Both the position numbers and the translations under genes were made by a program. This document shows, in pieces, positions 2,596-49,881 of a stretch of 64,000 nt of DNA. Under the pieces are notes generated by a model, which saw only the letters and a list, made by a program, of their open reading frames with translations, was not told the DNA's origin and did not search any database. Source of the DNA: a virus; IMG/VR virus record IMGVR_UViG_3300043539_001111, positions 1-64,000 of that record, one strand, 5' to 3'. Each line of letters opens with the position of its first letter. Positions within the stretch are counted from its first letter, which is position 1.

Positions 2596-2745
2596 CTATA
2601 ATTCTTCATCCTTTAATTCTATTATTTTTCGTTTAACTAACTCTAATGTTGAGTAAGCGACTAATTGTGATATTTCAAAATCGCCATCAGGGAACTTATT
2701 TTGTTCTTCCTCAACCCATTCTAATAATTTTTCGTAACATTCCAT
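2596..2745 (-). CDS. Small hypothetical protein, 49 aa
   Basis: Minus-strand ATG at 2745 opens a 49-codon acidic, helical protein (starts MECYEKLLEWVEEEQ). It begins 4 nt after the stop of the thioesterase gene on the same strand, so both are probably one transcript. No domain recognised. It may be a small partner or an independent early protein. Confidence 0.5.
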   Translation of the reverse strand: MECYEKLLEWVEEEQNKFPDGDFEISQLVAYSTLELVKRKIIELKDEEL

Positions 2746-2749
2746 ATGA

Positions 2750-3154
2750 TTAAATTTTAGAGTCAATTAAGGTTTGTATTTTTTTTCTACCCTTATCACC
2801 AATTGGAATTGGGTTTCCCCCTTCATCAATCATAACAAATTTTATATTTGTTCTTAAAACAATAACCTGATTACCGGTATAAACATTATGTGCTCTGGCT
2901 TCCATATATAAAGTAACAGATGTTGTTCCTATTAAAGATGGTTCACCATAGATTTTAATTAATTGACCTTCTCTTGCAGGTTTTTCAAAAAAACATTTAT
3001 CAATAGCTACTGTGACCATTCTTGGTGTGTCACATAATTGCATTGAATATCCCGCAGCGGCAGCGTCAATCCACGCGAGTAATTTCCCACCAAAAAGATT
3101 TCCGTGAAATCCCAAGTCGGATTTTTTAATTGGGTGTGTGTTTAATAATTCCAT
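2750..3154 (-). CDS. Acyl-CoA thioesterase, hotdog fold
   Basis: Predicted acyl-CoA hydrolase of the YciA/BACH type. The N-terminus carries FHGNLFGGKLLAWIDAAAAG, the family signature in which Asn, Gly-Gly and Asp line the active site. PAREGQLIKIYGE and TNIKFVMID fit the later strands of the fold. The length of 134 aa is normal for one complete hotdog domain. The enzyme would release free fatty acids from CoA in the cytoplasm. It is rare in phages, and no other lipid gene is near, so the role (membrane or precursor remodelling, or CoA recycling) is open. It is the first gene of a two-gene minus-strand unit. Confidence 0.8.
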   Translation of the reverse strand: MELLNTHPIKKSDLGFHGNLFGGKLLAWIDAAAAGYSMQLCDTPRMVTVAIDKCFFEKPAREGQLIKIYGEPSLIGTTSVTLYMEARAHNVYTGNQVIVLRTNIKFVMIDEGGNPIPIGDKGRKKIQTLIDSKI

Positions 3155-3219
3155 ATTTGAAATATAAGTAAAATTATAAACAAAAAAAACATTAATTGAT
3201 TATTAAAGTATTTATAGAT

Positions 3220-4179
3220 ATGTTAACAGAAAAACAACTAAATAGAATTAATAAACTATTATCAACCCGAACATTTAAGTTTAAAGGTCAAATAATTAAT
3301 GATTTACCGGAATCAATGAATTCGGATATAGATTATAAATTTAAAATTAATGGTTATAAAAAAATGACTAGCGTTGGTGAGGAGTATGATTACGCTTTAT
3401 TAAATGTTGTTATCACAGGACTAAATGATAGATTTAGTCAATTACTATTTACACCTGAAGACAATGAACAAGGTAAAATGATTGCTAAAAGTTTTGAAAA
3501 TAGATTATATAAATTCTATTCAGAATTAAATTTGGCGATGACTAATTTTTTACGTATCTTTGATGGAGATATTAGAACAACAATTGATAGTTTAACATTT
3601 GATGTTCCAAAACCAATAAATGAATCAAGAATGAGTAGATTAGCCATTAGAACTGTTGTAAGAGATATTGTTAATGTTTTAAAAAATACTAAAGCTGGTG
3701 ATTTTAGATTACCCGATGTTGAAGATGGTTCAGAATATCAATTTATTAATTTACCTTTTGGGTTTAATGTAGATTTATTTGTTAAAATTGATAATGACGC
3801 TCCAAAATATAAAATGAATGGACAAACCACAGATAATGATGTGATTCAAATTTTAGTAATAATCAACCCTAAAACATTAAAGAATGATTTTTATAATATA
3901 ATTGGTGAGTTGAATGAAATAGTCGCTCACGAATTAGAACACTTATATCAGGATTATAGAGGGGAACGTAAAACTAAAACTCCAACAAAAAATTCTTTTA
4001 AATATTATACTCAACCACGCGAAATAAAAGCTCAAAGAGCCGGTTTTAGACGTATCGCAAAATTAAGAAAATTACCATTTAATGATGTGGTTAGAGATTG
4101 GTTTGAAGACCATAAAGAAATTCACCAAATGAATGACAATGAAGTGGATAAAGTGATACAAATAATTATTAATGGCTAA
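3220..4179 (+). CDS. Predicted zincin metalloprotease
   Basis: 319 aa with AHELEHLYQDYRG near residue 243, an HExxH zinc site. A further Glu or His downstream (for example EIKAQRAGF, where Glu follows about 30 residues later) could be the third ligand, as in gluzincins. The N-terminal two thirds are not recognised. The frame is open upstream to a TTG at 3196, but the ATG at 3220 sits 5 nt after a TATTTATA motif, the arrangement seen at other phage genes. Its last 8 nt overlap the next gene. A virion-associated or cell-lysis protease is plausible; target unknown. Confidence 0.65.
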   Translation: MLTEKQLNRINKLLSTRTFKFKGQIINDLPESMNSDIDYKFKINGYKKMTSVGEEYDYALLNVVITGLNDRFSQLLFTPEDNEQGKMIAKSFENRLYKFYSELNLAMTNFLRIFDGDIRTTIDSLTFDVPKPINESRMSRLAIRTVVRDIVNVLKNTKAGDFRLPDVEDGSEYQFINLPFGFNVDLFVKIDNDAPKYKMNGQTTDNDVIQILVIINPKTLKNDFYNIIGELNEIVAHELEHLYQDYRGERKTKTPTKNSFKYYTQPREIKAQRAGFRRIAKLRKLPFNDVVRDWFEDHKEIHQMNDNEVDKVIQIIING

Positions 4180-21369: not shown

Positions 21370-21451
21370 GGAAGAGTGGACAGTTGGTTGTCGAGCGGTC
21401 TTGAAAACCGTCGCTCGTAATGGGTTGCAGGTTCGAATCCTGTCTCTTCCG
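21370..21451 (+). tRNA. tRNA-Ser(TGA)
   Basis: Acceptor GGAAGAG/CTCTTCC, anticodon loop CTTGAAA with anticodon TGA, long variable arm as expected for Ser, T-loop TTCGAAT. CCA is not encoded. Confidence 0.92.
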
Positions 21452-21552
21452 CGGGTTAGTTAAATAGTTTAATCCACACCCAAAAAAGAATGTCCGGAGA
21501 GAGTCCGGGGCGAACGTAATTGTGGTAATCGTTCTTTAACTAAAAAATATTT
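21452..21552 (+). other. Structured spacer RNA
   Basis: Between two tRNAs. TTAGTTAAA near its start can pair with TTTAACTAA at its end. Inside are hairpins with TCCGG..CCGG and GAACG/CGTTC. Not a tRNA. It could be a processing element or a separate small RNA. Confidence 0.4.
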
Positions 21553-21624
21553 TGCCCCTTCGTATATCGGTTAGTACACATGGTTTTGGTCCATGCGGGG
21601 GGAGTTCGATTCTCTCAGGGGTAA
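21553..21624 (+). tRNA. tRNA-Gln(TTG)
   Basis: Acceptor TGCCCCT/AGGGGTA with one G-U, anticodon stem CATGG/CCATG, loop TTTTGGT with anticodon TTG, T-loop TTCGATT. Confidence 0.9.
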
Positions 21625-21631
21625 CAAAAAT

Positions 21632-21703
21632 GGTGATATGGTCGATTGGTTTAGGCACTGGATTGCAAACTCAGTTAGGTGGGTTCGATTCCTACTATCA
21701 CCT
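21632..21703 (+). tRNA. tRNA-Cys(GCA)
   Basis: Acceptor GGTGATA/TATCACC, anticodon loop TTGCAAA with anticodon GCA, T-loop TTCGATT. The anticodon stem has one mismatch. Confidence 0.88.
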
Positions 21704-21710
21704 CAACGGG

Positions 21711-21753
21711 TTCGGTGGAAACCCAAAAATAGATGATGAATCTATGTCCACCA
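21711..21753 (+). other. Nested hairpin
   Basis: CGGTGGA and TCCACC enclose a second hairpin TAGAT-GATGA-ATCTA. It lies between tRNA-Cys and a CAT-anticodon tRNA and is not itself a tRNA. Confidence 0.4.
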
Positions 21754-21757
21754 AAAT

Positions 21758-21826
21758 GCCGAGGGGTCAGGTGACCGGAGATGGCTCATATCTATTTCTA
21801 GAATGGCTCGATACCATTTCTCGGTA
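21758..21826 (+). tRNA. tRNA with CAT anticodon, short D-arm
   Basis: Acceptor GCCGAG/CTCGGT, anticodon loop CTCATAT with anticodon CAT, T-stem AATGG/CCATT with loop CTCGATA. The D-arm is cut to GGTC-AGGT-GACC, so the RNA is only 69 nt. It could decode Met, or Ile if lysidine-modified. Confidence 0.55.
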
Positions 21827-21842
21827 CGAACAGCACTCAGTT

Positions 21843-21877
21843 TATATGTTTGAGGGTGGGAGGAATCTAAACATATA
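21843..21877 (+). other. Long A/T hairpin
   Basis: ATATGTTT and AAACATAT form an 8-bp stem around a 17-nt purine-rich loop just before tRNA-Val. Probably a processing signal or small RNA. Confidence 0.4.
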
Positions 21878-21880
21878 TTT

Positions 21881-21951
21881 GCCTCGATGGCGTAATGGGA
21901 GCGTATTTGTCTTACATACAAATGGTGGGGGTTCAATTCCCTCTCGAGGTA
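21881..21951 (+). tRNA. tRNA-Val(TAC)
   Basis: Acceptor GCCTCGA/TCGAGGT, anticodon stem TTTGT/ACAAA, loop CTTACAT with anticodon TAC, T-loop TTCAATT. Confidence 0.9.
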
Positions 21952-22007
21952 CAAAAATCTAAAATTTGAGCAGTAAAATGTCTTAAATTTGAGCAATACA
22001 AAAAATT

Positions 22008-22088
22008 GGGTAGTAAAAGTCGTTCGGATACGGCAGCCAGACTGTAAATCTGGTCCTTTTGGGAGTGGTTCGAGTCCACTACTGCCCA
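22008..22088 (+). tRNA. tRNA-Tyr(GTA)
   Basis: Acceptor GGGTAGT/ACTGCCC, anticodon stem CCAGA/TCTGG, loop CTGTAAA with anticodon GTA, long variable arm as normal for bacterial Tyr, T-loop TTCGAGT. It is preceded by a direct repeat of AAATTTGAGCARTA. Confidence 0.92.
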
Positions 22089-22089
22089 C

Positions 22090-22230
22090 AATGATAATGG
22101 TCTTCTCTATCTCTCGGATGTCGACAATCCAAGATAGGTCAAAGAATTCACACACCCCCTGCCGGTGCACCGTAAAACTACGAATAAGCAGTTAAGATTG
22201 GAGCGAGATGGGTACTCCAACATTATCATT
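22090..22230 (+). ncRNA. Structured RNA between tRNA-Tyr and tRNA-Phe
   Basis: AATGATAATG (22090-22099) pairs perfectly with CATTATCATT (22221-22230) and closes a 120-nt domain. Inside are a bipartite hairpin CTATCT..GGAT/ATCC..AGATAG (22107-22137), a palindrome CGGTGCACCG, and TTGGA/TCCAA (22198-22220). It has no tRNA features and no ORF with support. I do not recognise the family. Confidence 0.55.
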
Positions 22231-22234
22231 ACTT

Positions 22235-22307
22235 GGTTCTCTTGTGTAAGTGGTCTGCACGCAAGACTGAAAATCTTGAGGATAGAGTTCGATTCTCTGG
22301 GGAACCA
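22235..22307 (+). tRNA. tRNA-Phe(GAA)
   Basis: Acceptor GGTTCTC/GGGAACC, anticodon stem CAAGA/TCTTG, loop CTGAAAA with anticodon GAA, T-loop TTCGATT. Confidence 0.9.
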
Positions 22308-22330
22308 CGGAGTCCTGAAATAACAGGAAA

Positions 22331-22379
22331 CCCCCACTCCCATATGGCAGCCGGTCCATTAACCCGGTGAAGTGGGGTA
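22331..22379 (+). other. Mini tRNA-like hairpin
   Basis: CCCCACT and AGTGGGG form a 7-bp stem; inside is a CCATATGG palindrome and a second stem GCCGG/CCGGT with a CCATTAA-type loop. It looks like a tRNA without D- and T-arms, or a decayed copy. A smaller hairpin TCCTG/CAGGA lies just upstream. Confidence 0.35.
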
Positions 22380-22384
22380 AATAT

Positions 22385-22470
22385 TGACGGGTTGCCGTAG
22401 TTGGTCGAACGGTCCGGACTGTTAATCCGGTGAAAATATTCCATCGTGGGTTCGAATCCCACCCCGTCAG
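22385..22470 (+). tRNA. tRNA-Asn(GTT), long variable region
   Basis: Acceptor TGACGGG/CCCGTCA, anticodon stem CCGGA/TCCGG, loop CTGTTAA with anticodon GTT, T-stem GTGGG/CCCAC. The variable region is about 16 nt, where bacterial tRNA-Asn normally has 5. Confidence 0.85.
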
Positions 22471-22521
22471 CGAATTTTTTCGAAAATTAACATATTTATT
22501 ATTAACAAAAAAAGTTAATTT

Positions 22522-23061
22522 ATGGAAAGGTATTCGGAACAAATAATTTCTTTAAGAAATGAAGGTAAATCGTATAAAGAAATTAAAAAAATTTTAGGTT
22601 GTGCTTTATCAACTATCTCATATCATTGTACTAAAAATAAAGTTGGTGGTTTTTCAGATAGATTATCGGATGATGATAAGAAAAAATTACAAGAACTATA
22701 TGATGAATTAGGTTCAGTTAAAAAAGTTAGAAAAATGACAGGTAGGTCGGTTGAAACAATATTAAAATATGTTGTAACTAAAAAACCTACAAAAAAAATA
22801 ACATCATCTGAATCAGTTATAAATTGGAGAAAAAGAACTAAACAAAAGTTAATTCAATATAAAGGGGGTTCTTGTGAATTATGTGGATATTATAAATGTG
22901 AACGGGCACTTGAATTTCATCATATTAACCCTGAAGAGAAAGATTTTAGTATTAGTGGTAAAAGTTTATCGTTTGATAAATTAAAAGATGAGGTTGATAA
23001 GTGTATGTTAGTTTGTTCTAATTGTCATTGTGAAATACACGACGGACTTATTAACTTATAA
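22522..23061 (+). CDS. HNH homing-type endonuclease
   Basis: 179 aa. The N-terminal third has two helix-turn-helix-like units (GKSYKEIKKILGCALSTISYH and GSVKKVRKMTGRSVETILKY). The C-terminal third is an HNH domain with CELCGYYKC, LEFHHINPEEKDF and CSNCHCEIHDG, with two Cys pairs for zinc. DNA-binding repeats plus HNH is the make-up of phage homing endonucleases. It stands alone inside a tRNA operon, which fits an inserted selfish gene. A TATTTATT motif lies upstream. Confidence 0.85.
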   Translation: MERYSEQIISLRNEGKSYKEIKKILGCALSTISYHCTKNKVGGFSDRLSDDDKKKLQELYDELGSVKKVRKMTGRSVETILKYVVTKKPTKKITSSESVINWRKRTKQKLIQYKGGSCELCGYYKCERALEFHHINPEEKDFSISGKSLSFDKLKDEVDKCMLVCSNCHCEIHDGLINL

Positions 23062-23068
23062 AATATAT

Positions 23069-23141
23069 GGTGGCTATAGTGTAACGGTTAACACGATAGA
23101 TTGTGGTTCTGTAAATGGGAGTTCGATTCTCCTTAGTCACC
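23069..23141 (+). tRNA. tRNA-His(GTG)
   Basis: Acceptor GTGGCTA/TAGTCAC preceded by G-1 at 23069 and followed by discriminator C, both His features. Anticodon loop TTGTGGT with anticodon GTG. Confidence 0.9.
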
Positions 23142-23148
23142 CAAAAAT

Positions 23149-23220
23149 GTCTCCATAGTTCAACGGATAGAACGTCAGGCTACGGACTTGAAGATGTGGG
23201 CTCGAATCCTGCTGGAGACA
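23149..23220 (+). tRNA. tRNA-Arg(ACG)
   Basis: Acceptor GTCTCCA/TGGAGAC, anticodon stem TCAGG/CTTGA, loop CTACGGA with anticodon ACG, T-loop CTCGAAT. Reading of CGN would need A-to-I editing by the host TadA. Confidence 0.88.
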
Positions 23221-23228
23221 CAAAAAAA

Positions 23229-23290
23229 TCGCTGATAGTAATATCGAAGGTGTGTAATGATATCAACATCGTAGGTTAAGCGATATCCTA
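23229..23290 (+). other. Hairpin with alternative folds
   Basis: ATCGCT/AGCGAT encloses about 50 nt, and GTAGG/CCTAC overlaps it, so two folds compete. Located between tRNA-Arg and tRNA-Ser. Confidence 0.35.
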
Positions 23291-23296
23291 CAAAAT

Positions 23297-23382
23297 GGAG
23301 AGTAAAACAATCAGGGTATTGTCACCTCCTGCTAAGAGAGTGGTTCGGTAAAATGGATGGATTTCGAGTATTCTGCTCTCCG
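23297..23382 (+). tRNA. tRNA-Ser(GCT)
   Basis: Acceptor GGAGAGT/GCTCTCC, anticodon loop CTGCTAA with anticodon GCT, long variable arm, T-loop TTCGAGT. The anticodon stem needs a bulge, so folding is weaker than in the other Ser tRNA. Confidence 0.75.
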
Positions 23383-23398
23383 CAGAAAAATAATAACA

Positions 23399-23473
23399 CT
23401 AGATGTAGAGGAGCCCGGAGTCCTCGCCGTCCTTGGAAGACGGAGACCGCAAGTTCAAATCTTGCCATCTAGA
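23399..23473 (+). tRNA. tRNA-Pro(TGG)
   Basis: Acceptor CTAGATG/CATCTAG, anticodon stem CCGTC/GACGG, loop CTTGGAA with anticodon TGG, T-loop TTCAAAT. Confidence 0.9.
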
Positions 23474-23478
23474 CGACC

Positions 23479-23552
23479 CGGTACTTAGCTCAATTGGTTA
23501 GAGCACTCGCCTGATACGTGAGAGGTTATAGGTTCGATTCCTATAGTACCGA
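23479..23552 (+). tRNA. tRNA-Ile(GAT)
   Basis: Acceptor CGGTACT/AGTACCG, standard D-arm, anticodon loop CTGATAC with anticodon GAT, T-loop TTCGATT. Confidence 0.93.
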
Positions 23553-23581
23553 CAAATGTGGCTCACAAACTTTGATTATTA

Positions 23582-23607
23582 AGTTCAAATTATGTATAAT
23601 TTGAGCC
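23582..23607 (+). other. Hairpin spacer
   Basis: CAAATTA and TAATTTG form a stem in the spacer before tRNA-Lys, with GGCTCA/TGAGCC-type pairing around it. Confidence 0.35.
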
Positions 23608-23635
23608 CAATGTTAAAGTAAAATGAGCTCAATAA

Positions 23636-23707
23636 TCCCCCGTAGCAAACCGGTGTAGGCAACTGGCTTTTAACCAGTGGGGTCAGGTTCAACTCCTGAC
23701 GGGGGAA
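23636..23707 (+). tRNA. tRNA-Lys(TTT)
   Basis: Acceptor TCCCCCG/CGGGGGA, anticodon stem ACTGG/CCAGT, loop CTTTTAA with anticodon TTT, T-loop TTCAACT. Confidence 0.92.
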
Positions 23708-23740
23708 CAAAAAGAATGTTTAACTAATAAATCAAAAGTT

Positions 23741-23980
23741 GTGAGTAGTGTTACTTGGTCAGTATTTAGTGCTGAATATTTTAGTGAAGTAAAAAAAGAA
23801 TCAATGTGGAGAAAACAAACTTTTCTTTATATGGGAGATTTATCCAACGTAGATATGACAACAGATTGGAGATTTAGTGATGTTGAAGGAAAAAGAAGAA
23901 AGTGTGAATTTTTAGGGTTAATAGATAATCCGGAATTTCCACTAAAAGAACCAATAGAAACATATAGAAATAATGAGTAA
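23741..23980 (+). CDS. Hypothetical protein, 79 aa
   Basis: Not recognised. The frame starts with GTG at 23741 (no ATG before it); an in-frame ATG at 23804 would give 58 aa. It is Trp-rich (four Trp) with a charged end, and its stop overlaps the start of the HNH gene by 8 nt, so it is probably translated ahead of it. Confidence 0.5.
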   Translation: MSSVTWSVFSAEYFSEVKKESMWRKQTFLYMGDLSNVDMTTDWRFSDVEGKRRKCEFLGLIDNPEFPLKEPIETYRNNE

Positions 23981-24479
23981 GTACGGAAAAACATTGGTTT
24001 TGGATTCAAGTTATATGCCAAGGTCTATCATAAACACTGAAAGGGCTTTTGTCATAACTTATAAGGGTAATGCAAGTGTTATTGCCGAACATCCGGAATC
24101 ATTCAGTTTGATTAATCCTGAATTGGATATCAAAAAACCCTCAATTATTAGGGTTTACAAATATGTGAATCAACCGATTCATAAAGTTCCTTTAAGTAGG
24201 GAGAATGTTTATAGAAGAGATGGTTATGCCTGTGTATATTGTGGATGTGACAATCGTAAAACTTTAACATTAGACCACGTAATACCCCAATCTAAGGGAG
24301 GTAAAGATGCGTGGGACAACTTGGTAACTGCTTGTAAAAGATGTAATAGTGAGAAATCAAACTTGACATTGGAAGAATATGGTAAAGAAATACCTCAACC
24401 AAGACGACCACATTATTTGATGATGATAAAACAAGTTCATTATATTCCTGAAGAATGGAATGATTATTTATTTTTCTAA
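23973..24479 (+). CDS. HNH endonuclease
   Basis: 168 aa. The N-terminus (LVLDSSYMPRSIINTERAFV) and the C-terminal HNH domain are those of a widespread bacterial and phage family. Motifs: CVYCGCDNRKTLTLDHVIP, then DNLVTACKRCNSEKSN, giving two CxxC zinc pairs and the catalytic His of LDHV. The whole family length is present. It probably nicks or cuts DNA. In a tRNA array it may be a free-standing homing enzyme or act in packaging or host DNA breakdown. Confidence 0.88.
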   Translation: MSKYGKTLVLDSSYMPRSIINTERAFVITYKGNASVIAEHPESFSLINPELDIKKPSIIRVYKYVNQPIHKVPLSRENVYRRDGYACVYCGCDNRKTLTLDHVIPQSKGGKDAWDNLVTACKRCNSEKSNLTLEEYGKEIPQPRRPHYLMMIKQVHYIPEEWNDYLFF

Positions 24480-24484
24480 AAATT

Positions 24485-24514
24485 TTGGCAGAATAAAAAA
24501 TAGTTGTATCTTTG
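24485..24514 (+). promoter_or_regulatory. Bacteroidota-type promoter
   Basis: TTG at 24485-24487, 19-nt spacer, TATCTTTG at 24507-24514. It transcribes the 47-aa gene, tRNA-Trp and the structured RNA after it. Confidence 0.8.
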
Positions 24515-24536
24515 TTGAAATAAAAACGGAGAAACT

Positions 24537-24680
24537 ATGTCATTAGAAAAAGAAATTTTGGGATTTACAAATTGGTTATACGCTAACAATTGGAAACTAA
24601 TTGGTGATGGGATGTGTTTAAATCTTGAAACAAAGTCGATTGGTTATATTAACGAACTGATGGTTGAATATAATAAATAA
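24537..24680 (+). CDS. Small hypothetical protein, 47 aa
   Basis: Not recognised. A 47-codon gene with a clear promoter and AT-rich leader ending GGAGAAACT before the ATG, a rare purine-rich ribosome-binding-like stretch. The protein has an amphipathic helix (LEKEILGFTNWLYANNWKL) and a hydrophobic end. It is the first gene of a unit that continues into tRNA-Trp. Confidence 0.6.
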   Translation: MSLEKEILGFTNWLYANNWKLIGDGMCLNLETKSIGYINELMVEYNK

Positions 24681-24752
24681 AACACCCGCTACGTAACGAA
24701 AGCGCTACGACACGTACTATCTGGCAGGTCAGGTCGGGTGTTTATTGAAAAT

Positions 24753-24823
24753 GCAGGTCACAGACAAGGTGTCGGTACAGTCTCCAAAACTGTTACGGGT
24801 AGGTTCGATTCCTACGGTCTGCG
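24753..24823 (+). tRNA. tRNA-Trp(CCA)
   Basis: Acceptor GCAGGTC/GGTCTGC with G-U pairs, anticodon stem CAGT/ACTG, loop CTCCAAA with anticodon CCA, T-loop TTCGATT. It is preceded by a long-range inverted repeat AACACCCG/CGGGTGTT (24681-24743). Confidence 0.85.
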
Positions 24824-24831
24824 CAGAAGAC

Positions 24832-24883
24832 GGAGAGTGAGTCAAGGGTAATTCCGTTATGGTTATCCCTCGAGGGTCTCTCC
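24832..24883 (+). other. Nested hairpin RNA
   Basis: GGAGAG/CTCTCC outside and AGGGTAA/TTATCCCT inside (one bulge) form a 52-nt hairpin directly after tRNA-Trp. Confidence 0.45.
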
Positions 24884-24893
24884 TGAAGAATTG

Positions 24894-25091
24894 AAAAGTT
24901 TAACAACCGGGGTGTCCATACTCTAAAAAACTAATGGACTAGTCGTGTTGATAGGGGTGACCTCCCAACAGTAGCACCGTAGTAATACGGTAAAGGATAG
25001 ATAAGGACTGGTACGCCGGTGAGGAACACGACCAATTCCGGAATTCCCATTGTAGCCCGCTACGACCCGAGGGCGGGGTTGTTAAACTTTT
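24894..25091 (+). ncRNA. Novel structured RNA closed by a 15-bp helix
   Basis: The first and last 15 nt pair perfectly (AAAAGTTTAACAACC with GGTTGTTAAACTTTT) and are followed by a T-run, so the closing helix can also act as the terminator. Inside are GTCCAT/ATGGAC, TCGTGTT/AACACGA (7 bp), ACCGTA-GTAA-TACGGT with a GNRA loop, CCTC/GAGG stacked on the second helix, the palindrome AATTCCGGAATT, and GCCC/GGGC. No ORF fits. I do not recognise the class. It lies downstream of tRNA-Trp on one transcript. Confidence 0.65.
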
Positions 25092-25113
25092 TTTAATAAT
25101 AAATCTTACCAAT

Positions 25114-25431
25114 ATGAAAAATACAATAGATAGAAGAATGTTGGATGTGGATATCACACCAATAACTTTATCAAAAATTAAATCTCAGGGATTAACACCA
25201 TATTATTATGATGAAAATACTGATATTGTTGAATTAACAGGACCAATTAAAGGGAAGACATATAATACAAAACCAAAAGAAGTGTTTTTATTAACTCCGG
25301 ATGAGTATGATAAAATTAAAAAATTATCAGACAATATTAAGGAAATGATTGAACTTAAATTAAAACAAATTAAGTTATACAAACAATATATTCCAGCGGT
25401 TATGGGAGAAATTATAAAAAAAAATAATTAA
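25114..25431 (+). CDS. Hypothetical protein, 105 aa
   Basis: Not recognised. A basic soluble protein ending in a long amphipathic helix (EMIELKLKQIKLYKQYIP). The middle has a LTGPIKGKTYNTKPKEVFLL strand region. It begins 22 nt after the structured RNA. No promoter box directly upstream; it may be read through from the tRNA-Trp unit. Confidence 0.6.
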   Translation: MKNTIDRRMLDVDITPITLSKIKSQGLTPYYYDENTDIVELTGPIKGKTYNTKPKEVFLLTPDEYDKIKKLSDNIKEMIELKLKQIKLYKQYIPAVMGEIIKKNN

Positions 25432-25434
25432 TAC

Positions 25435-25464
25435 TTGACACTTTTTAAAAAAGGACTATATTTA
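25435..25464 (+). promoter_or_regulatory. Near-consensus promoter of second leader unit
   Basis: TTG at 25435-25437, 19-nt spacer, TATATTTA (one mismatch to TAnnTTTG) at 25457-25464. Confidence 0.5.
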
Positions 25465-25488
25465 TTAGAAATTACAATAACACAGAAA

Positions 25489-25563
25489 ATGCAAACTTTA
25501 AATACATTATTACTTACAATAGGCGCGGAGGGTAGAGATACAACTCGGTCGGAGATGGTATGA
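25489..25563 (+). CDS. Leader peptide of second attenuator-like unit, 24 aa
   Basis: A 24-codon frame (MQTLNTLLLTIGAEGRD...) between a promoter and a terminator. Its last codons contain GGAGATGG (25551-25558), which can pair with CCATCTCC, the 5' arm of the terminator, exactly the antiterminator layout seen at 21,1xx. The RNA between is G-rich. Downstream is the promoter of tRNA operon 2. Confidence 0.45.
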   Translation: MQTLNTLLLTIGAEGRDTTRSEMV

Positions 25564-25599
25564 TGTATTGTTAAGTAACATAATAATAATAGATTAAGT

Positions 25600-25630
25600 C
25601 CATCTCCAAAAGAGATGGATTTTTTTTTAT
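25600..25630 (+). terminator. Intrinsic terminator of second leader unit
   Basis: TCCATCTC and GAGATGGA form an 8-bp stem with a CAAAA loop and T9. The loop is the same as in the first leader unit. Confidence 0.88.
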
Positions 25631-25638
25631 AAAAAAGT

Positions 25639-25668
25639 TTGGTATAATGAAATAAAGTATTATCTTTG
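25639..25668 (+). promoter_or_regulatory. Promoter of tRNA operon 2
   Basis: TTG at 25639-25641, 19-nt spacer, TATCTTTG at 25661-25668. The leader contains TTGAAATATTGGTAA as in operon 1. Confidence 0.85.
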
Positions 25669-25715
25669 TACCATCAAAAAGAAACAAGTTAATTGAAATA
25701 TTGGTAATATAAAAC

Positions 25716-25787
25716 GGCCCTATCGTCTATCGGTTAGGACATTTGGTTTTCATCCAAAAAAGTCGGGTTCGACTCCCGGTGGGGCTA
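25716..25787 (+). tRNA. tRNA-Glu(TTC)
   Basis: Acceptor GGCCCTA/TGGGGCT with G-U pairs, anticodon stem TTTGG/CCAAA, loop TTTTCAT with anticodon TTC, T-loop TTCGACT. Confidence 0.9.
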
Positions 25788-25792
25788 CAATT

Positions 25793-25864
25793 GGGGATAT
25801 AGTATAACGGCTATTACAATGGTTTTGCAAATCGTAAATTAGGGTTCGATTCCCTATATCTCCA
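25793..25864 (+). tRNA. tRNA-Ala(TGC)
   Basis: Acceptor GGGGATA/TATCTCC, anticodon loop TTTGCAA with anticodon TGC, T-loop TTCGATT. The usual G3-U70 Ala identity pair is absent; a G-U is at position 4. Confidence 0.82.
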
Positions 25865-25868
25865 CAAA

Positions 25869-25940
25869 GGTCTATTCGTTCAACGGCTAGGATGCTACCC
25901 TGTCACGGTAGAGATGAGAGTTCGATTCTCTCATAGACCG
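25869..25940 (+). tRNA. tRNA-Asp(GTC)
   Basis: Acceptor GGTCTAT/ATAGACC, anticodon stem CTACC/GGTAG, loop CTGTCAC with anticodon GTC, T-loop TTCGATT, discriminator G. Confidence 0.92.
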
Positions 25941-25944
25941 CAAA

Positions 25945-25988
25945 CCATAGGATTAATTACCCTATGACTGTCAGGTTCGAAACTGACG
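25945..25988 (+). other. Hairpin plus isolated T-arm-like hairpin
   Basis: CATAGG/CCTATG hairpin followed by GTCAG-GTTCGAAA-CTGAC, which has the sequence of a tRNA T-arm with no tRNA around it. Confidence 0.4.
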
Positions 25989-25990
25989 AT

Positions 25991-26102
25991 TGATTATGGT
26001 GTAATGGTGCACAGAGGAACGGAGTAGGAATACGAAAAGCATTGGGCTTTCGTCGGTTCTGAAAGGGGACTCAGGATTAAGGTTCGAGTCCTTATTAATC
26101 AG
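25991..26102 (+). ncRNA. tRNA-like RNA with large insert in place of anticodon arm
   Basis: 112 nt. The ends form an acceptor-like stem TGATTA/TAATCA. There is a tRNA D-arm (GGTGTAATGGTGCAC) and a T-arm (TAAGG-TTCGAGT-CCTTA). Where the anticodon arm should be, there is a 40-50 nt insert with AGGAAC..GTTCT enclosing CGAAA(A)GC/GCTTTCG. No normal 7-nt anticodon loop is evident. It could be an intron-bearing tRNA or a tRNA mimic. Confidence 0.45.
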
Positions 26103-26109
26103 CAACATC

Positions 26110-26180
26110 GCGAGGGGGAGGTATAGTATCTCATTGGTCTCATAAGCCAATCAAAGCAGGAGCGTTACCTGCCCTACGCT
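26110..26180 (+). tRNA. tRNA-Met(CAT)
   Basis: Acceptor GCGAGGG/CCTACGC with one A-A mismatch, D-stem GAG/CTC, anticodon stem TTGGT/GCCAA, loop CTCATAA with anticodon CAT. T-stem GCAGG/CCTGC has an unusual AGCGTTA loop. Confidence 0.75.
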
Positions 26181-26203
26181 ACTAATTTAATAACTAAATC
26201 CGT

Positions 26204-26374
26204 ATGGCTACAGCAGCAAAAAGGTCAAGACAATCAAGAGCACTTGATATGTTACAGAACCAATTGAAAAGTGGTGTGAAAACACAAAAGGGTACAAGGG
26301 ACGTAAAAGTTCCATTAACAGATTCTGACAAGAAAAGAATCGAAAAAGAGATGGGGATTCTCCAATCTAGATAA
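26204..26374 (+). CDS. Small basic protein, 56 aa
   Basis: Not recognised by function. A 56-codon gene within the tRNA operon; basic N-terminus (MATAAKRSRQSRALDMLQNQ), a Thr/Lys middle and a helical end (SDKKRIEKEMGILQSR). Its codon use is like other genes here. It looks like a small nucleic-acid-binding protein and is read from the operon promoter. Confidence 0.65.
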   Translation: MATAAKRSRQSRALDMLQNQLKSGVKTQKGTRDVKVPLTDSDKKRIEKEMGILQSR

Positions 26375-26456
26375 TGAAAAAGTGTCTCGGTACGCTCTGA
26401 CGAAAGTTAACGACGAGGTCCCGGTAGACAGAACGCGTCTGATTCTACCCAAATCT
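26375..26456 (+). other. Structured spacer
   Basis: GGTAGA/TCTACC with an inner AGAC/GTCT, in the spacer before tRNA-Gly. Confidence 0.35.
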
Positions 26457-26528
26457 GCGAATATCGTATAGTGGTTATTACTCCATCCTTCCAAGTTGGA
26501 GACGAGAGTTCGATTCTCTCTATTCGCT
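26457..26528 (+). tRNA. tRNA-Gly(TCC)
   Basis: Acceptor GCGAATA/TATTCGC, anticodon loop CTTCCAA with anticodon TCC, T-loop TTCGATT. One mismatch in the anticodon stem. Confidence 0.87.
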
Positions 26529-26535
26529 CAAAATT

Positions 26536-26607
26536 GCCTTCATAGTTCAAGGGATAGAATAAGACACTTCTAATGTTTTGATATAGGTTCGAGTCCTATT
26601 GAGGGTA
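26536..26607 (+). tRNA. tRNA-Arg(TCT)
   Basis: Acceptor GCCTTCA/TGAGGGT, anticodon stem AGACA/TGTTT, loop CTTCTAA with anticodon TCT, T-loop TTCGAGT. Confidence 0.88.
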
Positions 26608-26615
26608 CAACAATT

Positions 26616-26688
26616 GCTCTAGTGGTGGAACGGTATACACACTTGTCTTAGGAACAAGGTTTTGAGGGTTCGAATCCCTCCTTGAGTA
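26616..26688 (+). tRNA. tRNA-Leu(TAG), short variable loop
   Basis: Acceptor GCTCTAG/CTTGAGT, Leu-type D-arm, anticodon stem CTTGT/ACAAG, loop CTTAGGA with anticodon TAG, T-loop TTCGAAT. Only about 5 nt of variable region; bacterial Leu tRNAs have a long arm. Confidence 0.82.
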
Positions 26689-26695
26689 CAATACA

Positions 26696-26797
26696 TTATC
26701 ATAACTCGGTGTGATACACCGCCAACTACCTCCTTAAACAACGTGGGAACTGCGGTTCTCCCAATGTGGCCGAAGTGATGATGTTAAAAAATGATAA
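26696..26797 (+). other. Structured spacer competing with next tRNA-like RNA
   Basis: TTATCAT (26696-26702) can pair with ATGATAA (26791-26797), which is also the 5' acceptor strand of the next element. Inside are CGGTGT/ACACCG and TGGGA/TCCCA hairpins. Confidence 0.4.
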
Positions 26798-26947
26798 CTG
26801 TGGTGGAATTGGTATACACGGGGGTCTAGTCCAATATGATTGGTTGAGAGTGAACTTCTCAATCTCTTGCTCACGGACGGAAACTGCCGGAGAAAACACA
26901 GCAAGAAGTGTTATATCCTTACAGGTTCGAGTCCTGTTGGTTATCAG
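26792..26947 (+). ncRNA. tRNA-like RNA with about 85-nt structured insert
   Basis: 156 nt. Acceptor TGATAAC/GTTATCA (7 bp), a Leu-type D-arm (GTGGTGGAATTGGTATACACG) and T-arm ACAGG-TTCGAGT-CCTGT are intact. Between them are hairpins CCAAT/ATTGG, TTGAGA/TCTCAA and TCTTGC/GCAAGA (enclosing CGG/CCG) instead of a plain anticodon arm. TATACAC/GTGTTATA may close the insert. It is too short for a group I intron. It could be a tRNA-Leu with an unknown intron or a tRNA-like regulatory RNA. Confidence 0.5.
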
Positions 26948-26998
26948 TAGTTTAAGAGACAGAGTTGACTTCTACTTAAAAAAAATACTCTGCGACAG

Positions 26999-27081
26999 GC
27001 TGGTGTCGCATAGAGGTTGATTGCACCTGATTTGTAATCAGGAACCGAAAGGTCACGTTGGTTCGAATCCAATCACCAGCT
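26999..27081 (+). tRNA. tRNA-Thr(TGT), with extra variable hairpin
   Basis: Acceptor GCTGGTG/CACCAGC, anticodon stem CCTGA/TCAGG, loop TTTGTAA with anticodon TGT, T-stem GTTGG/CCAAT. The variable region holds a hairpin ACC-GAAA-GGT, not normal for tRNA-Thr. Confidence 0.85.
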
Positions 27082-27306
27082 CAGGTCATCCACTTTCGTT
27101 CTCTCCGTATGAGGGTATGGGTTCTTGGATGTAAAATGTAGAACTCGGACGGTTGAAATAGACCAAACGATAATACGGCCTTTTTACAAATTTTTGTGCG
27201 GACAAAAAATACGGGTTCTTCGGTGGGCACCGGGTTATTTCTCTTAAAATAACACAACTACTAAAAGTATGGACACATATGGGGAAACCGAACCCGTGTC
27301 CTATAT
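27082..27306 (+). ncRNA. Multi-helix structured RNA between tRNAs
   Basis: No ORF with support. TTTTTGT-GCGG-ACAAAAA hairpin (27191-27208), then a domain closed by ACGGGTTC (27211-27218) and GAACCCGT (27290-27297), with internal CGGT-GGGC-ACCG and GTTATTT/AAATAAC. GGACAC/GTGTCC is an alternative. Upstream CATCC/GGATG closes a smaller domain. Family not recognised. Confidence 0.5.
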
Positions 27307-27386
27307 AGTCGGGTGGCGGAATTGGATAGACGCGGCCCCGTCGAGGGGTTTAACCGGAATTACAGGTTCGAGTCCTGTCCTGACTA
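27307..27386 (+). tRNA. tRNA-like, Leu-type body, unclear anticodon
   Basis: Acceptor AGTCGGG/CCTGACT, Leu-like D-arm (GTGGCGGAATTGGATAGACGC), T-arm ACAGG-TTCGAGT-CCTGT. The anticodon arm CCCC-GTCGA-GGGG has a 5-nt loop; if opened, TCG sits in the loop but U33 is missing. A tRNA with a damaged or noncanonical anticodon arm. Confidence 0.5.
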
Positions 27387-27389
27387 CAA

Positions 27390-27600
27390 TTGAGTGAGAG
27401 ATACTCAATAGATTTGGCATCGTTTCTTAAACAATGATGTAGCTGACGCCTCAAACGGTTTTACAGAGGGGGTCTGTCGGAATAAAGGGAACTGACAACA
27501 TTCCCTCCGAGTAGTTGTTGACTTTTAAGCGGTAAGACGCGATGGGTTTTGAATAGGAAAACTGTGGACATCTACACCAAAATAATCTCATTGGTGGAAA
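27390..27600 (+). ncRNA. Structured RNA region before tRNA-Leu
   Basis: Hairpins TTGAGT/ACTCAA, CATCGTTT/AAAC(A)ATG within GGC/GCC, GGGA/TCCC within TCGGA/TCCGA, GTTTT/AAAAC within GATG/CATC, and CACC/GGTG follow one another. No supported ORF. Confidence 0.4.
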
Positions 27601-27603
27601 CAC

Positions 27604-27676
27604 ATCCTCGTGGTGAAACGGTAAACACAACAAGTTTAAGCCTTGTAAGCTGCAGGTTCGACTCCTGTCGGGGATA
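27604..27676 (+). tRNA. tRNA-Leu(TAA), short variable loop
   Basis: Acceptor ATCCTCG/CGGGGAT, anticodon stem ACAAG/CTTGT, loop TTTAAGC with anticodon TAA, T-loop TTCGACT. The variable region is about 5 nt, lacking the usual Leu long arm. Confidence 0.85.
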
Positions 27677-27742
27677 CTAATATTTACTAATATGAAAAAC
27701 CAACAACCAAACTCCACATAGTTTTAGCAGTTAGCTAAGATT

Positions 27743-27973
27743 ATGACTCAGAAATTGAGAATTTGGAGAGTAGTTCCCGTTTATAACGGTGTTCAGGCTC
27801 CCACTTTTTTCGTAGAAACTACGGAAGAGGGACGTGAGAAGGCAGAGGAATCTGCAATTAAACAAGCACGAATGAAATCGGGCTTAGGAAAGTTCAAACA
27901 ATGGAACTTTAGATTGGAGAAACTCTCTGTGAGGGTTGATAAATTTGGTAGGTATGTGAAACACCACCAATAG
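27743..27973 (+). CDS. Hypothetical protein, 76 aa
   Basis: Not recognised. A basic alpha/beta protein (starts MTQKLRIWRVVPVYNG; middle TTEEGREKAEESAIKQA) between two tRNAs. The strand-helix-strand plan resembles small phage proteins. It is transcribed with the tRNA operon. A hairpin ATGGGT/ACCCAT separates it from the next tRNA. Confidence 0.6.
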   Translation: MTQKLRIWRVVPVYNGVQAPTFFVETTEEGREKAEESAIKQARMKSGLGKFKQWNFRLEKLSVRVDKFGRYVKHHQ

Positions 27974-28012
27974 TTATTCAAGTGTTTATGGGTACACTAA
28001 AAACCCATAATT

Positions 28013-28087
28013 GGCCTCTTAACTCAGTCCGGTAAGAGTAGCTCGCTCATAACGAGAAGGTCACAGGTTCAAATCCTGTAGGGGCCA
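28013..28087 (+). tRNA. tRNA-Ile2(CAT), lysidine type
   Basis: Acceptor GGCCTCT/AGGGGCC, anticodon loop CTCATAA with anticodon CAT, T-stem ACAGG/CCTGT. The acceptor and D-arm resemble bacterial tRNA-Ile2, whose C34 is changed to lysidine; tRNA-Met is the alternative. Confidence 0.82.
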
Positions 28088-28088
28088 C

Positions 28089-36317: not shown

Positions 36318-36408
36318 GGTATTGTAGCTCAGTGGAAGATTTATCTTCCTTGGTAGAGCAAGAGTAACGAAAGACTCTGTGCCGCAGGTTCGAACCCCGC
36401 CGATACCA
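36318..36408 (+). ncRNA. tRNA-like RNA with hairpin inserted in the D-loop
   Basis: Acceptor GGTATTG/CGATACC, D-stem GCTC/GAGC, but the D-loop holds a perfect hairpin GGAAGAT-TT-ATCTTCC (36334-36349). Anticodon stem AGAGT/ACTCT has an 8-nt loop AACGAAAG without U33. T-arm GCAGG-TTCGAAC-CCCGC. It keeps tRNA shape but has no clear anticodon. Confidence 0.5.
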
Positions 36409-36446
36409 CAAATAAAAAAAAATTAAAAAAAAGTTTTATAAAGTGC

Positions 36447-41922: not shown

Positions 41923-41952
41923 AAAAAAAGAGGACTAATTGTCCTCTTTTTT
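41923..41952. terminator. Bidirectional terminator
   Basis: AAAAAAGAGGAC and GTCCTCTTTTTT, 12-bp perfect stem with a 5-nt loop. The stop codon of the minus-strand Clp-like gene lies inside it. Confidence 0.9.
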
Positions 41953-43980
41953 CTTTCTTGTCTTTTTGGTAGGTTCTGTTTTGACCACCACTTCTTTCTC
42001 TACGGATACAAGGGTGTATGGAACACCCTCCACCATATTTCCTTTGATAATCTCTTCAGATACAAAATCCTCAATCTTATCTTGGATAGCTCTTTTGATT
42101 GGTCTTGCCCCGTAGGTTTCATCAAATCCAACTTCAGAGATTAGTTCTAAAATACTTTCATCAAATGTTATGTTATATTTCAATCCAACCAATCTTTTAG
42201 ATAGTTTGTCCAATTCCAATTTAACGATTTTCTTAACGTCTTCTTTAACCAAAGAGTTAAAGATAACAACCTCATCAATTCTGTTTAAGAATTCCGGAGT
42301 AAAGAATTTCTTAAGTTCTTTTTTAAGTGTCTCACGTTTGTATTCTTCTTCTACATAAGAACTAGCTCCTGTTTTAAAACCAACCCCTGAACCAAAATCT
42401 TGTAATTTTTTAGCTCCAACATTTGATGTCATAATGATGACACAATTTTTGAAGTTAATCTTTCTCCCCATACCATCGGTAAGGTGACCATCGTCTAATA
42501 CTTGAAGAAGTGTTGAAAAGATATCTTTGTTTGCTTTCTCAATTTCATCAAATAGAATTACAGAATAAGGTTTGTTTTTCACTTGTTCGGTTAATTGTCC
42601 ACCTTCATCGTATCCAACGTATCCCGGAGGTGCTCCAATTAATCTTGAAATGGTGTGTTTTTCTTGGTACTCGGACATATCCACACGAATCATATTATCT
42701 TCGCTACCGAACATTTGTTTCGCTAGTTGTTTTGCCAAGTATGTTTTACCAACACCTGTTGAACCTAAAAAGATGAATGAACCGATTGGTTTGTTCGGGT
42801 CTTTAATACCAATTCTGTTTCTACGGATTGATTTTGCAATCTTTGAAACTGCTTCAGATTGTCCAATAACTTTATCAGATAGATTTGTTTCCATCTCTGA
42901 CAATAGTTTGGTTTCATCAGCATTTAATTTGGTAACTGGAATTTTTGTCATATTGGAAACCACTTCATAAACTAAATCCAAAGTGATTTCTTTTTTGTGT
43001 GTAAGAAGTTCTTCTTCAAACTTTTTCTTTTCAGCTTCAAGTTTGGTTAAGATACGTTTTTCTTTATCACGTAGGTTTGCCGCCTCCTCGTATCGTTGTT
43101 GTTTTACTACATCAATTTTTTCTTGTTTAATGTTTGACGCTTGAAGTTTCAATTTTTCAATTGAATCTGGCATTTTCACATCTACCTGACTTCTCGCTCC
43201 AACCTCATCAATAATGTCGAATCCTTTGTCCGGGAATTCTCTATCTGTGATATAACGGTCTGCTAAATCAACACATACAGACAATACTTCATCAGTATAA
43301 GTTACCTTGTGGTAGTTCTCGTATTTGTCTTTTACATTTTTAAGGATGATTAATGTCTCTTCTTTGGTTGCAGCATCCACAACAACTTTTTGGAAACGTC
43401 TTTCTAACGCTCCGTCTTTCTCAAAGTTTTTTCTGTATTCATCCAAAGTGGTTGCCCCAACACATTGAATCTCTCCACGAGCAAGTGCTGGTTTGAAGAT
43501 ATTCGACGCGTCCATTGAACCTGATGAATTACCTGCTCCAACGATTGTGTGGATTTCGTCAATGAATACAATGATGTTTGGTTCGTTTTGAAGTTCTTCG
43601 ATAATGACTTTCATTCTTTCTTCAAATTGTCCACGATATTTTGTTCCCGCAACAATTGATGTCATATCTAATGACACAATTCTTTTGTCCATTAAGTTTC
43701 TTGGACAATCCCCATTATAAATCATAATGGCAAGACCTTCAACAATTGCGGTTTTACCACAACCAGGTTCACCAATAATAATTGGGTTATTTTTCTTTCT
43801 ACGTGAAAGGATTTGTGCAATTCGAGTGATTTCTCTTTCTCTACCAACCACCGGGTCAAGTTTACCCTCTTCGGCAAGTTTTATTAAATCTCTACTAAAA
43901 TTGTCTAATACGGGAGTTGATGAATCAGTTTTAACTGCTTTATTTCCACCGTTACTTCCACCATCCATAGATTCTGTCAT
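41935..43980 (-). CDS. clpC: ClpC-like AAA+ unfoldase without N-domain
   Basis: 681 aa, two AAA+ modules. Walker A1 is GEPGCGKTA near residue 70, Walker B1 VFIDEIH near 140, a UVR motif ([17 protein letters not shown]) near 295, Walker A2 GSTGVGKT near 405, and FDEIEK as second Walker B. Near residue 547, GSGVGFKT carries VGF, the tripeptide loop used by ClpC/ClpA to dock on ClpP. The N-terminal repeat domain is replaced by a 30-residue Gly/Ser tail. It would unfold proteins for the host ClpP and could process tmRNA-tagged proteins. Confidence 0.9.
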
Positions 43981-48469: not shown

Positions 48470-48876
48470 GTTATTTAATATATGTTAACGAATTAGGACC
48501 AAATTATAAAGGGGATAACATATATGAATTTATTTTCTCGGATAGTTTGGAAAACATTTGGGGTGAAAACTGGGATGCTAAACCATCCAACAGATACCCA
48601 CTCCCACCTGATTTAGAACACATAAAAAAAGTAGGAGTTTTGAAGAATGATATGATAACCATGTCAGTAATTCAAAACTCTGATTATTTTTCGATGATTG
48701 ATTCTATGGATGGGATAATTGCTTTGGGGTATGAAAATGAAAGTGATGACGTTGATTTTGATAGACAAACTAGATTAGTATTTTCGTTTGGTGAAACAGA
48801 AGAATCAGTAAAAAATAAATTATATGAACGAGACATCGTTTTAGAATTTGAAAAAAAAGTTGTATATGAACACTAA
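48466..48876 (+). CDS. Conserved T4-type phage hypothetical protein
   Basis: 136 aa with LIYVNELGPNYKGDNIYEFIF, NIWGENWDAKPSNRYP and YERDIVLEFEKK. A family with the NYKG.N.YEF..SD and GE.WD signatures is found in T4-like myoviruses of several hosts. The function is unknown; it may be a neck or chaperone-type accessory. It overlaps the preceding stop by 4 nt and the next gene by 11 nt, showing coupling. Confidence 0.65.
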   Translation: MSYLIYVNELGPNYKGDNIYEFIFSDSLENIWGENWDAKPSNRYPLPPDLEHIKKVGVLKNDMITMSVIQNSDYFSMIDSMDGIIALGYENESDDVDFDRQTRLVFSFGETEESVKNKLYERDIVLEFEKKVVYEH

Positions 48877-49879: not shown

Positions 49880-49881
49880 TC

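Follow-up and report, generated by a model that had tools for sequence, protein, structure and literature searches.

A predicted TE6-like acyl-CoA thioesterase as a mobile accessory gene of large phages

What would a phage do with an acyl-CoA thioesterase, and where would it have acquired one? The question is raised by a 64,000-nucleotide stretch of DNA (the window), comprising bases 1–64,000 of a 74,464-base IMG/VR virus record. At positions 2750–3154, on the minus strand, it carries an intact, ATG-initiated open reading frame of 134 residues with Pfam and PDB sequence and fold matches that point to an acyl-CoA thioesterase (hotdog, 4HBT; TE6/ACOT-type). That the gene resides in a phage was confirmed: a PHROG search of this IMG/VR virus record found a portal and a major head protein encoded in it, and the record is therefore assigned to a phage. 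The portal and head proteins are related to those of other phages, which we take to be T4-like. Our best reading of the whole, to which we give a probability of roughly 0.7, is a host-derived accessory thioesterase of TE6-like type that frees CoA from acyl-CoA.

The protein matched Pfam family PF03061 (4HBT) with an E-value of 4.6e-14 and a score of 52.9 bits against a cut-off of 20.6, which places it in the 4HBT superfamily. It also matched PHROG 18230 (6.3e-23), listed as being of unknown function, for which a likely function can now be suggested. At E ≤ 0.001, 25 distinct PDB sequences matched the window protein, or 27 when a profile was used; most are acyl-CoA hydrolases or thioesterases by name, and a few are unnamed, hypothetical or labelled “putative hydrolase”. 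An AlphaFold monomer model calculated with 46 alignment rows had a pLDDT of 95.0 and a pTM of 0.88, with a helix (residues 23–41) among strands. The model gave 296 PDB matches at a Foldseek E ≤ 0.001, the best of them HI0827/YciA chains (TMq 0.85–0.90), and only two matches at E ≤ 0.001 in a viral fold library, one of which is named a PaaI-like phage thioesterase.

The original prediction had described a complete hotdog thioesterase of the YciA type. The Pfam, PDB and fold matches uphold the hotdog acyl-CoA thioesterase, but not YciA proper: the protein scored 28.4 bits with the NCBIfam YciA equivalog model (NF007970), whose cut-off is 162, which rules out a YciA ortholog. The score with the TIGR00369 domain was 17.5, against a cut-off of 36.6. 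YciA/HI0827 of Haemophilus influenzae (PDB 1YLI, 3BJK; TE6) has the same fold and a catalytic Asp that is probably equivalent, but it differs from the window protein in sequence (25–26% identity). Because the score falls below the NCBI cut-off, we regard the protein as a TE6/ACOT-type relative rather than as YciA; from sequence and model, it is probably complete, with a hotdog fold and TE6-like character, and belongs with the acyl-CoA thioesterases of the YciA/ACOT kind. The family scores, the fold, purifying selection (see below) and the existence of hundreds of relatives rule out a chance reading frame.

The codon of the probable catalytic residue, Asp30, lies at 3065–3067 (minus strand); conservation and alignment indicate that it is probably equivalent to D44 of YciA. 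In a profile search, Asp30 also lined up with the Asp on the helix of Cj0915 and with that of the second ACOT7 domain; the counterpart of Asn19 (codon at 3098–3100, minus strand) was the GN-GG motif Asn of the first ACOT7 domain. Asp44 of YciA and Asp213 and Asn24 of ACOT7 are reported to be catalytic (PMC10560148, PMC2698920). We compared these positions in distinct sequences, leaving out duplicates and those shorter than 105 residues, in the window's own subgroup (A1), an immuto-like subgroup (A2), an XacN1-like group (B) and a “cell” set of eight that includes the gene from the bacterial contig MED-G21. Asp30 is present in 61 of 61 A1, 64 of 64 A2 and 52 of 52 B sequences, i.e., in all 177 phage sequences, as well as in all eight of the “cell” set. 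Asn19 is found in 61/61 A1, 63/64 A2 and 8/8 “cell” sequences and in a single group B sequence (1/52), the other 51 having Thr or Ser at this position. The GG loop is invariant among the compared sequences of both phage groups. Alignment and conservation thus reveal the feature that defines TE6, a single Asp that follows the GG loop and sits on the central helix, and catalysis is predicted on this basis.

The PDB includes Asp-to-Ala mutants of related enzymes, whose mutant status we took from their titles; each was compared with other chains of its own protein. When the window protein was the query, mutants 3bjk, 5egk and 5t02 scored 3.4, 3.5–3.6 and 2.8 bits below 1yli, 4ncp/5egj and 4ien, respectively; with the profile, the drops were 4.8, 4.9 (2.4 against 5egj) and 4.4 bits. 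We consider this support rather than proof of the assignment, since 5szy, a variant other than these Asp mutants, also scored lower with the profile (60.4 vs. 62.7 for 4ien, or 2.3 bits).

Purifying selection acts on the reading frame. The median dN/dS of sequence pairs was 0.054 for A1 (300 pairs), 0.075 for A2 (300 pairs) and 0.055 for B (285 pairs), calculated from pairs with ≥75% protein identity, ≤97% DNA identity and dS between 0.1 and 2.5; these values are rough, since dS was near saturation (median 1.3–1.8). No sign of inactivation was seen among the active-site residues, and, judged by these residues and by selection, the enzyme is probably active. A non-enzymatic or repurposed hotdog protein, serving a structural role or acting as a regulator that binds CoA or nucleotides, appears highly improbable, given the invariance of the Asp and the GG loop in the compared sequences of both groups, even if GDP-mediated regulation figures in the titles (we refer to the titles only) of the relatives 5szu, 5szv, 5szy and 5szz and IMPDH-family genes are located near some other phage copies.

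The preferred reading, then, is of a TE6-like enzyme of the YciA/ACOT kind that hydrolyses acyl-CoA in the cytosol. Solved relatives suggest that six identical hotdog subunits probably assemble into a hexamer and that the active site lies where two of them form a dimer; the structures listed in PMC2698920 are hexamers, or trimers of double hotdogs, with their active sites at this interface. There, Asp30 together with the GN-LFGG loop would activate a water molecule, and acyl-CoA would be hydrolysed to free acid and CoA, as judged from the same relatives. The likeliest role of the enzyme during infection, alongside the products of other metabolic genes, would be to split acyl-CoA and so release CoA together with acids of small or medium size. 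Family, fold, the conserved catalytic residue and purifying selection were established by computation; substrate, benefit and expression in infection we infer. Altered CoA pools, one of two effects that had been proposed, remain the plain biochemical reading of the predicted enzyme.

A 49-residue ORF (2596–2745, minus strand, counted from its ATG) starts 4 nt past the thioesterase stop, and the two are possibly on one transcript. As a conserved downstream partner this ORF was rejected: among 260 loci, tblastn (E ≤ 1e-4) gave a match only in the window. Further downstream on the same strand are a 170-residue protein with no assigned function (2047–2559), matched in 28 of the 260 loci including the window, all of subgroup A1, and a 90-residue putative membrane protein (1474–1746), so named from a hydrophobic stretch recognised by eye, which had matches in 15 loci including the window and no Pfam or PHROG match. 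The divergent neighbour on the plus strand (3196–4179; 327 residues) was not assigned a function from the ORF list and the Pfam and PHROG searches; its listed start is TTG, and a later ATG is possible. It matched in 36 of the 260 loci including the window, and its start is often 30–90 bases from that of the thioesterase. A HAD phosphatase (HAD_SAK_2; Pfam PF18143, 2.7e-21) is encoded at 581–1147 on the plus strand, and its cluster occurs near phage thioesterases in 26 of 194 non-redundant loci (17 in group B and nine in A1), the window included. A sigma-70 scan found fewer promoter-like sites in the sequence than in shuffles (16 vs. 29), and terminator-like sites numbered eight, vs. 1.6 in shuffles, four of the eight being one overlapping stem at 1448–1468. 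Elsewhere, the window contains 23 tRNA genes for many amino acids (21370–28088 and 36318–36409), 22 of them in one stretch, and a gene for a 681-residue protein (41935–43980, minus strand) that matches PHROG 4871, an ATP-dependent protease family, very strongly (1.8e-241).

How widespread is the thioesterase among phages? A tblastn search of 50,697 phage records found eight that match the window protein: two of immuto (68% identity), a 642-kb uncultured phage (62%), XacN1 (39%), CM1 and RAS14 (both 36%), and two more at 32% and 28%. Four of these records, from three phages (immuto, XacN1 and RAS14), have the protein annotated as a thioesterase or thioester hydrolase; the other four are without any annotation. 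In IMG/VR, the single window protein found relatives in 227 of 248 candidate stretches, an alignment query in at least 571 and the immuto protein in at least 585 (each of 599 candidates listed); these three sets overlap. The XacN1 protein, which represents the second type, found relatives in 75 of 82 stretches. The original prediction had considered such a gene unusual for a phage, a view that does not survive the 571 or more IMG/VR stretches with relatives and the existing annotations in immuto, XacN1 and RAS14.

Among the named relatives, the “hydrolase/thioesterase” immuto26A_50 of Flavobacterium phage vB_FspM_immuto_2-6A (QQO91729.1) belongs to the same tree group as the window gene and is 68% identical to it over 93% of the query. 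XacN1 ORF409, annotated “acyl-CoA thioesterase”, and its homologs in Stenotrophomonas phages RAS14 and CM1 are also jumbo-phage thioesterases (36–39% identity), but they form the separate group B, which, unlike the window protein, mostly has Thr or Ser in place of Asn19. One 39-kb contig, IMGVR_UViG_3300026483_000880, encodes two thioesterases in opposite orientation (L361 and L364; 87% and 85% identity to immuto), representing either paralogs or a mis-assembly. Among the matches listed in our literature search, we found no description of such an acyl-CoA thioesterase from a phage. The publication on XacN1 (PMC5852040) uses neither “thioesterase” nor “acyl-CoA” in its main text, and a jumbo-phage survey (PMC7824862) contains none of “thioesterase”, “hotdog” and “hot dog”; an E. 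coli prophage is mentioned as having an acyl-CoA thioesterase in one sentence of PMC6379469. Large phages thus commonly carry this strongly conserved metabolic gene, which we did not find described in the literature searched.

Comparison with the capsid genes showed that the thioesterase is a mobile accessory gene of large phages. A 373-kb phage encodes a thioesterase 89% identical to that of the window, and its best capsid match is 21% identical over ≈165 residues; another phage has a capsid protein 90% identical to the window's and a thioesterase with 77% identity. Identities to the window of the two proteins were uncorrelated (rho = −0.21, p = 0.53) in 11 records, which remained of the 22 with a capsid match (53 searched) once near-copies, fragments, weak matches and the remote W03–W05 had been removed. 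Since the capsid genes of the carriers are so distant, the thioesterase has moved between phages. The exchange between the window and the 373-kb phage was not recent, since only 56% of third codon positions are alike.

Of the best 80 capsid relatives listed, 26 are 25 kb or longer; none of these carries the thioesterase, and a search of 12 of the 26 for Pfam 4HBT gave no match, whereas five known carriers were positive in the same search. Because of this absence we consider the gene accessory and its benefit not general. An inactive enzyme, or loss in close relatives, had been named beforehand as grounds for abandoning the original prediction; absence from the sampled capsid relatives bears out the second in part and does not imply the first. 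The major capsid protein of the window itself (59673–61589, plus strand; 638 residues) is matched by the immuto and G504 capsid proteins only at approximately residues 25–139 and 392–632, and query coverage was 48–57% in the 25 best phage records listed. This suggests an insertion of ≈250 residues in the window capsid protein that is common to its near relatives.

Relatives of the thioesterase are also found in cells. When the alignment query was used on one genome per species (84,980 species), at least nine loci were found, all titled Bacteroidota and sharing 53–70% identity with the window protein; more may exist, as the query patterns were strict, and one of the nine (L088) resembles a phage contig in its gene content. 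The gene is patchy among hosts. Close homologs (E ≤ 1e-20) were present in six of 296 genomes of the phylum and five of 196 of the order of genome G002, which is itself in both counts, while queries with host proteins (E ≤ 1e-22) matched 10 of 87 genomes in the order of G004 and one of 123 in that of G288.

We calculated a tree from 106 rows and 136 columns, in which 40 of the 102 inner branches were left open and one row (L087) was entered twice. A branch that was not starred (87/99) set subgroups A1 and A2, together with the MED-G21 gene and L088, apart from the rest, and this side adjoins two sets of Bacteroidota genes. The phylogeny, which had been proposed as a check on host origin, thus places the window's group beside Bacteroidota genes. 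Thioesterases that follow cysDN or metZ/hom in Bacteroidota constitute one of these two nearest cellular sets and are 53–57% identical to the window protein. Judging from the sequences, the window gene is most likely of host (Bacteroidota) origin, with the direction of transfer deduced from this arrangement, and is a candidate auxiliary metabolic gene of the phage. By analogy with the immuto phage and the sister genes, Bacteroidota would also be the host of the present phage.

Group B is far from A and includes one cellular row. A single phage origin for A and B was rejected (p-AU = 4e-6), which supports two acquisitions by phages. The MED-G21 thioesterase lies within the phage group on a starred branch, and its host may possibly have captured it from a phage; a grouping of A held without MED-G21 was not rejected (p-AU = 0.27), and for this reason we claim no direction of transfer. 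The MED-G21 locus L438 (4431–5225) also contains a cellular group B thioesterase, which starts 30 bases past the end of a methylmalonyl-CoA epimerase gene.

The most useful new lead to the substrate comes from the gene context in hosts, on the assumption that host and phage enzymes share a substrate. In the cellular sister group, a run of sulfur amino acid genes lies directly upstream of the thioesterase in eight of 10 readable genomes (with an intervening gene in one). The run holds at least one of homoserine dehydrogenase, an O-succinylhomoserine-sulfhydrylase-like (MetZ-like) enzyme, CysH, CysD and CysN; CysD, CysN, CysH and homoserine dehydrogenase scored above their NCBIfam cut-offs, and the MetZ- and MetX-like proteins scored just under them. 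The two genomes lacking this context are L448 (G615, with an in-frame TAA in the gene) and L455. G005 was left out of the count, as its contig begins 93 bases upstream, and in four loci the automatic marker missed the thioesterase, which is present in three of them according to the cluster table. In the second cellular group, a MetZ-cluster gene and homoserine dehydrogenase are upstream in one of nine genomes.

This context raises the possibility of a role in methionine and cysteine synthesis, in which the substrate would be a small thioester and the phage would tune or clean the pathway. Candidates are acetyl- or succinyl-CoA, with which homoserine is acylated, and thioesters formed in error, for instance an S-acyl thiol or homocysteine thiolactone. 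However, the sulfur amino acid context of the Bacteroidota sister genes was not found in phages: none of seven such host proteins matched in the flanks of 252 phage loci (tblastn, E ≤ 1e-5), where phages with sulfur-assimilation genes beside the thioesterase were accordingly not found, and a PAPS-reductase-family match was present in only one of 52 phage records (48 carriers and four non-carriers). The host context itself is absent from two of 10 sister genomes and eight of nine in the second group, and the window protein shares only 53–57% identity with the sister proteins. We therefore consider such a role unlikely.

In other phages, nucleotide genes form the context that was found. The 194 non-redundant loci (186 phage and eight “cell”) had a thyA cluster within ≈5 kb in 36 cases and an IMPDH-family cluster in 25, where cluster identities were taken from representatives and the IMPDH-family protein scored below equivalog cut-offs. 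A thyA gene was found in 33 of 48 carrier records and lies within 3 kb of the thioesterase in 11 of these 33, vs. 1.4 expected from random placement; an IMPDH-family gene (over the Pfam cut-off) was found in 13 of 48 and is equally close in seven of the 13, vs. 0.5 expected. This test ignores kinship between the records and used coordinates entered by hand. Within 1 kb, the excess of thyA was weak (four vs. 0.65 expected, with random draws reaching six in 20,000). All of the cases within 3 kb are in group A, the window's group; where group B records have thyA, it is never that close to the thioesterase. The immuto gene is two small genes away from thymidylate synthase and has queD and queE within 5 kb, but the window differs in this respect: no relative of thyA or of the IMPDH family was found anywhere in its 64 kb with queries that were positive in control loci.

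The second effect that had been proposed, a change in host membrane lipids, found no support in these contexts: sulfur amino acid genes accompany the sister gene in hosts, and nucleotide genes the copies in other phages. According to PMC10560148, TE6 enzymes act on C4–C18 acyl-CoAs, so that long-chain substrates are possible, and the fold matches are to acyl-CoA thioesterases; hydrolysis of long-chain fatty acyl-CoA (or acyl-ACP) might then remodel or starve phospholipid synthesis in the host. However, inspection by eye of the 39 most frequent neighbour clusters turned up no lipid gene (a family library was used to name three of the genes next to phage copies), and the host sister gene is downstream of sulfur amino acid genes. 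Bacterial phospholipid synthesis mainly uses acyl-ACP and acyl-phosphate, a further point against this explanation, which we judge improbable.

A bolder proposal would join the two kinds of context. A thioesterase clade with almost only phage genes among its sampled members may have been retained under strong selection and exchanged among large phages with unrelated capsids, and a second clade captured separately, for one reason: control of a small CoA thioester on which the supply of sulfur amino acids and of one-carbon units and nucleotides, rather than fatty acids, depends. If true, this would constitute an unrecognised general step in the metabolic takeover by large phages; for the present, we regard it as doubtful. 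Any part that CoA thioesters play in infection is directly testable, since the cultured phage immuto (Flavobacterium sp. LMO8) carries a relative from the same group as the window gene. In one of the records surveyed for thyA (G465, the record of L002), the gene at 48722–50707 matched Pfam in two pieces separated by ≈835 bases within one 679-residue frame, a possible case of interruption by an intein or other insertion.
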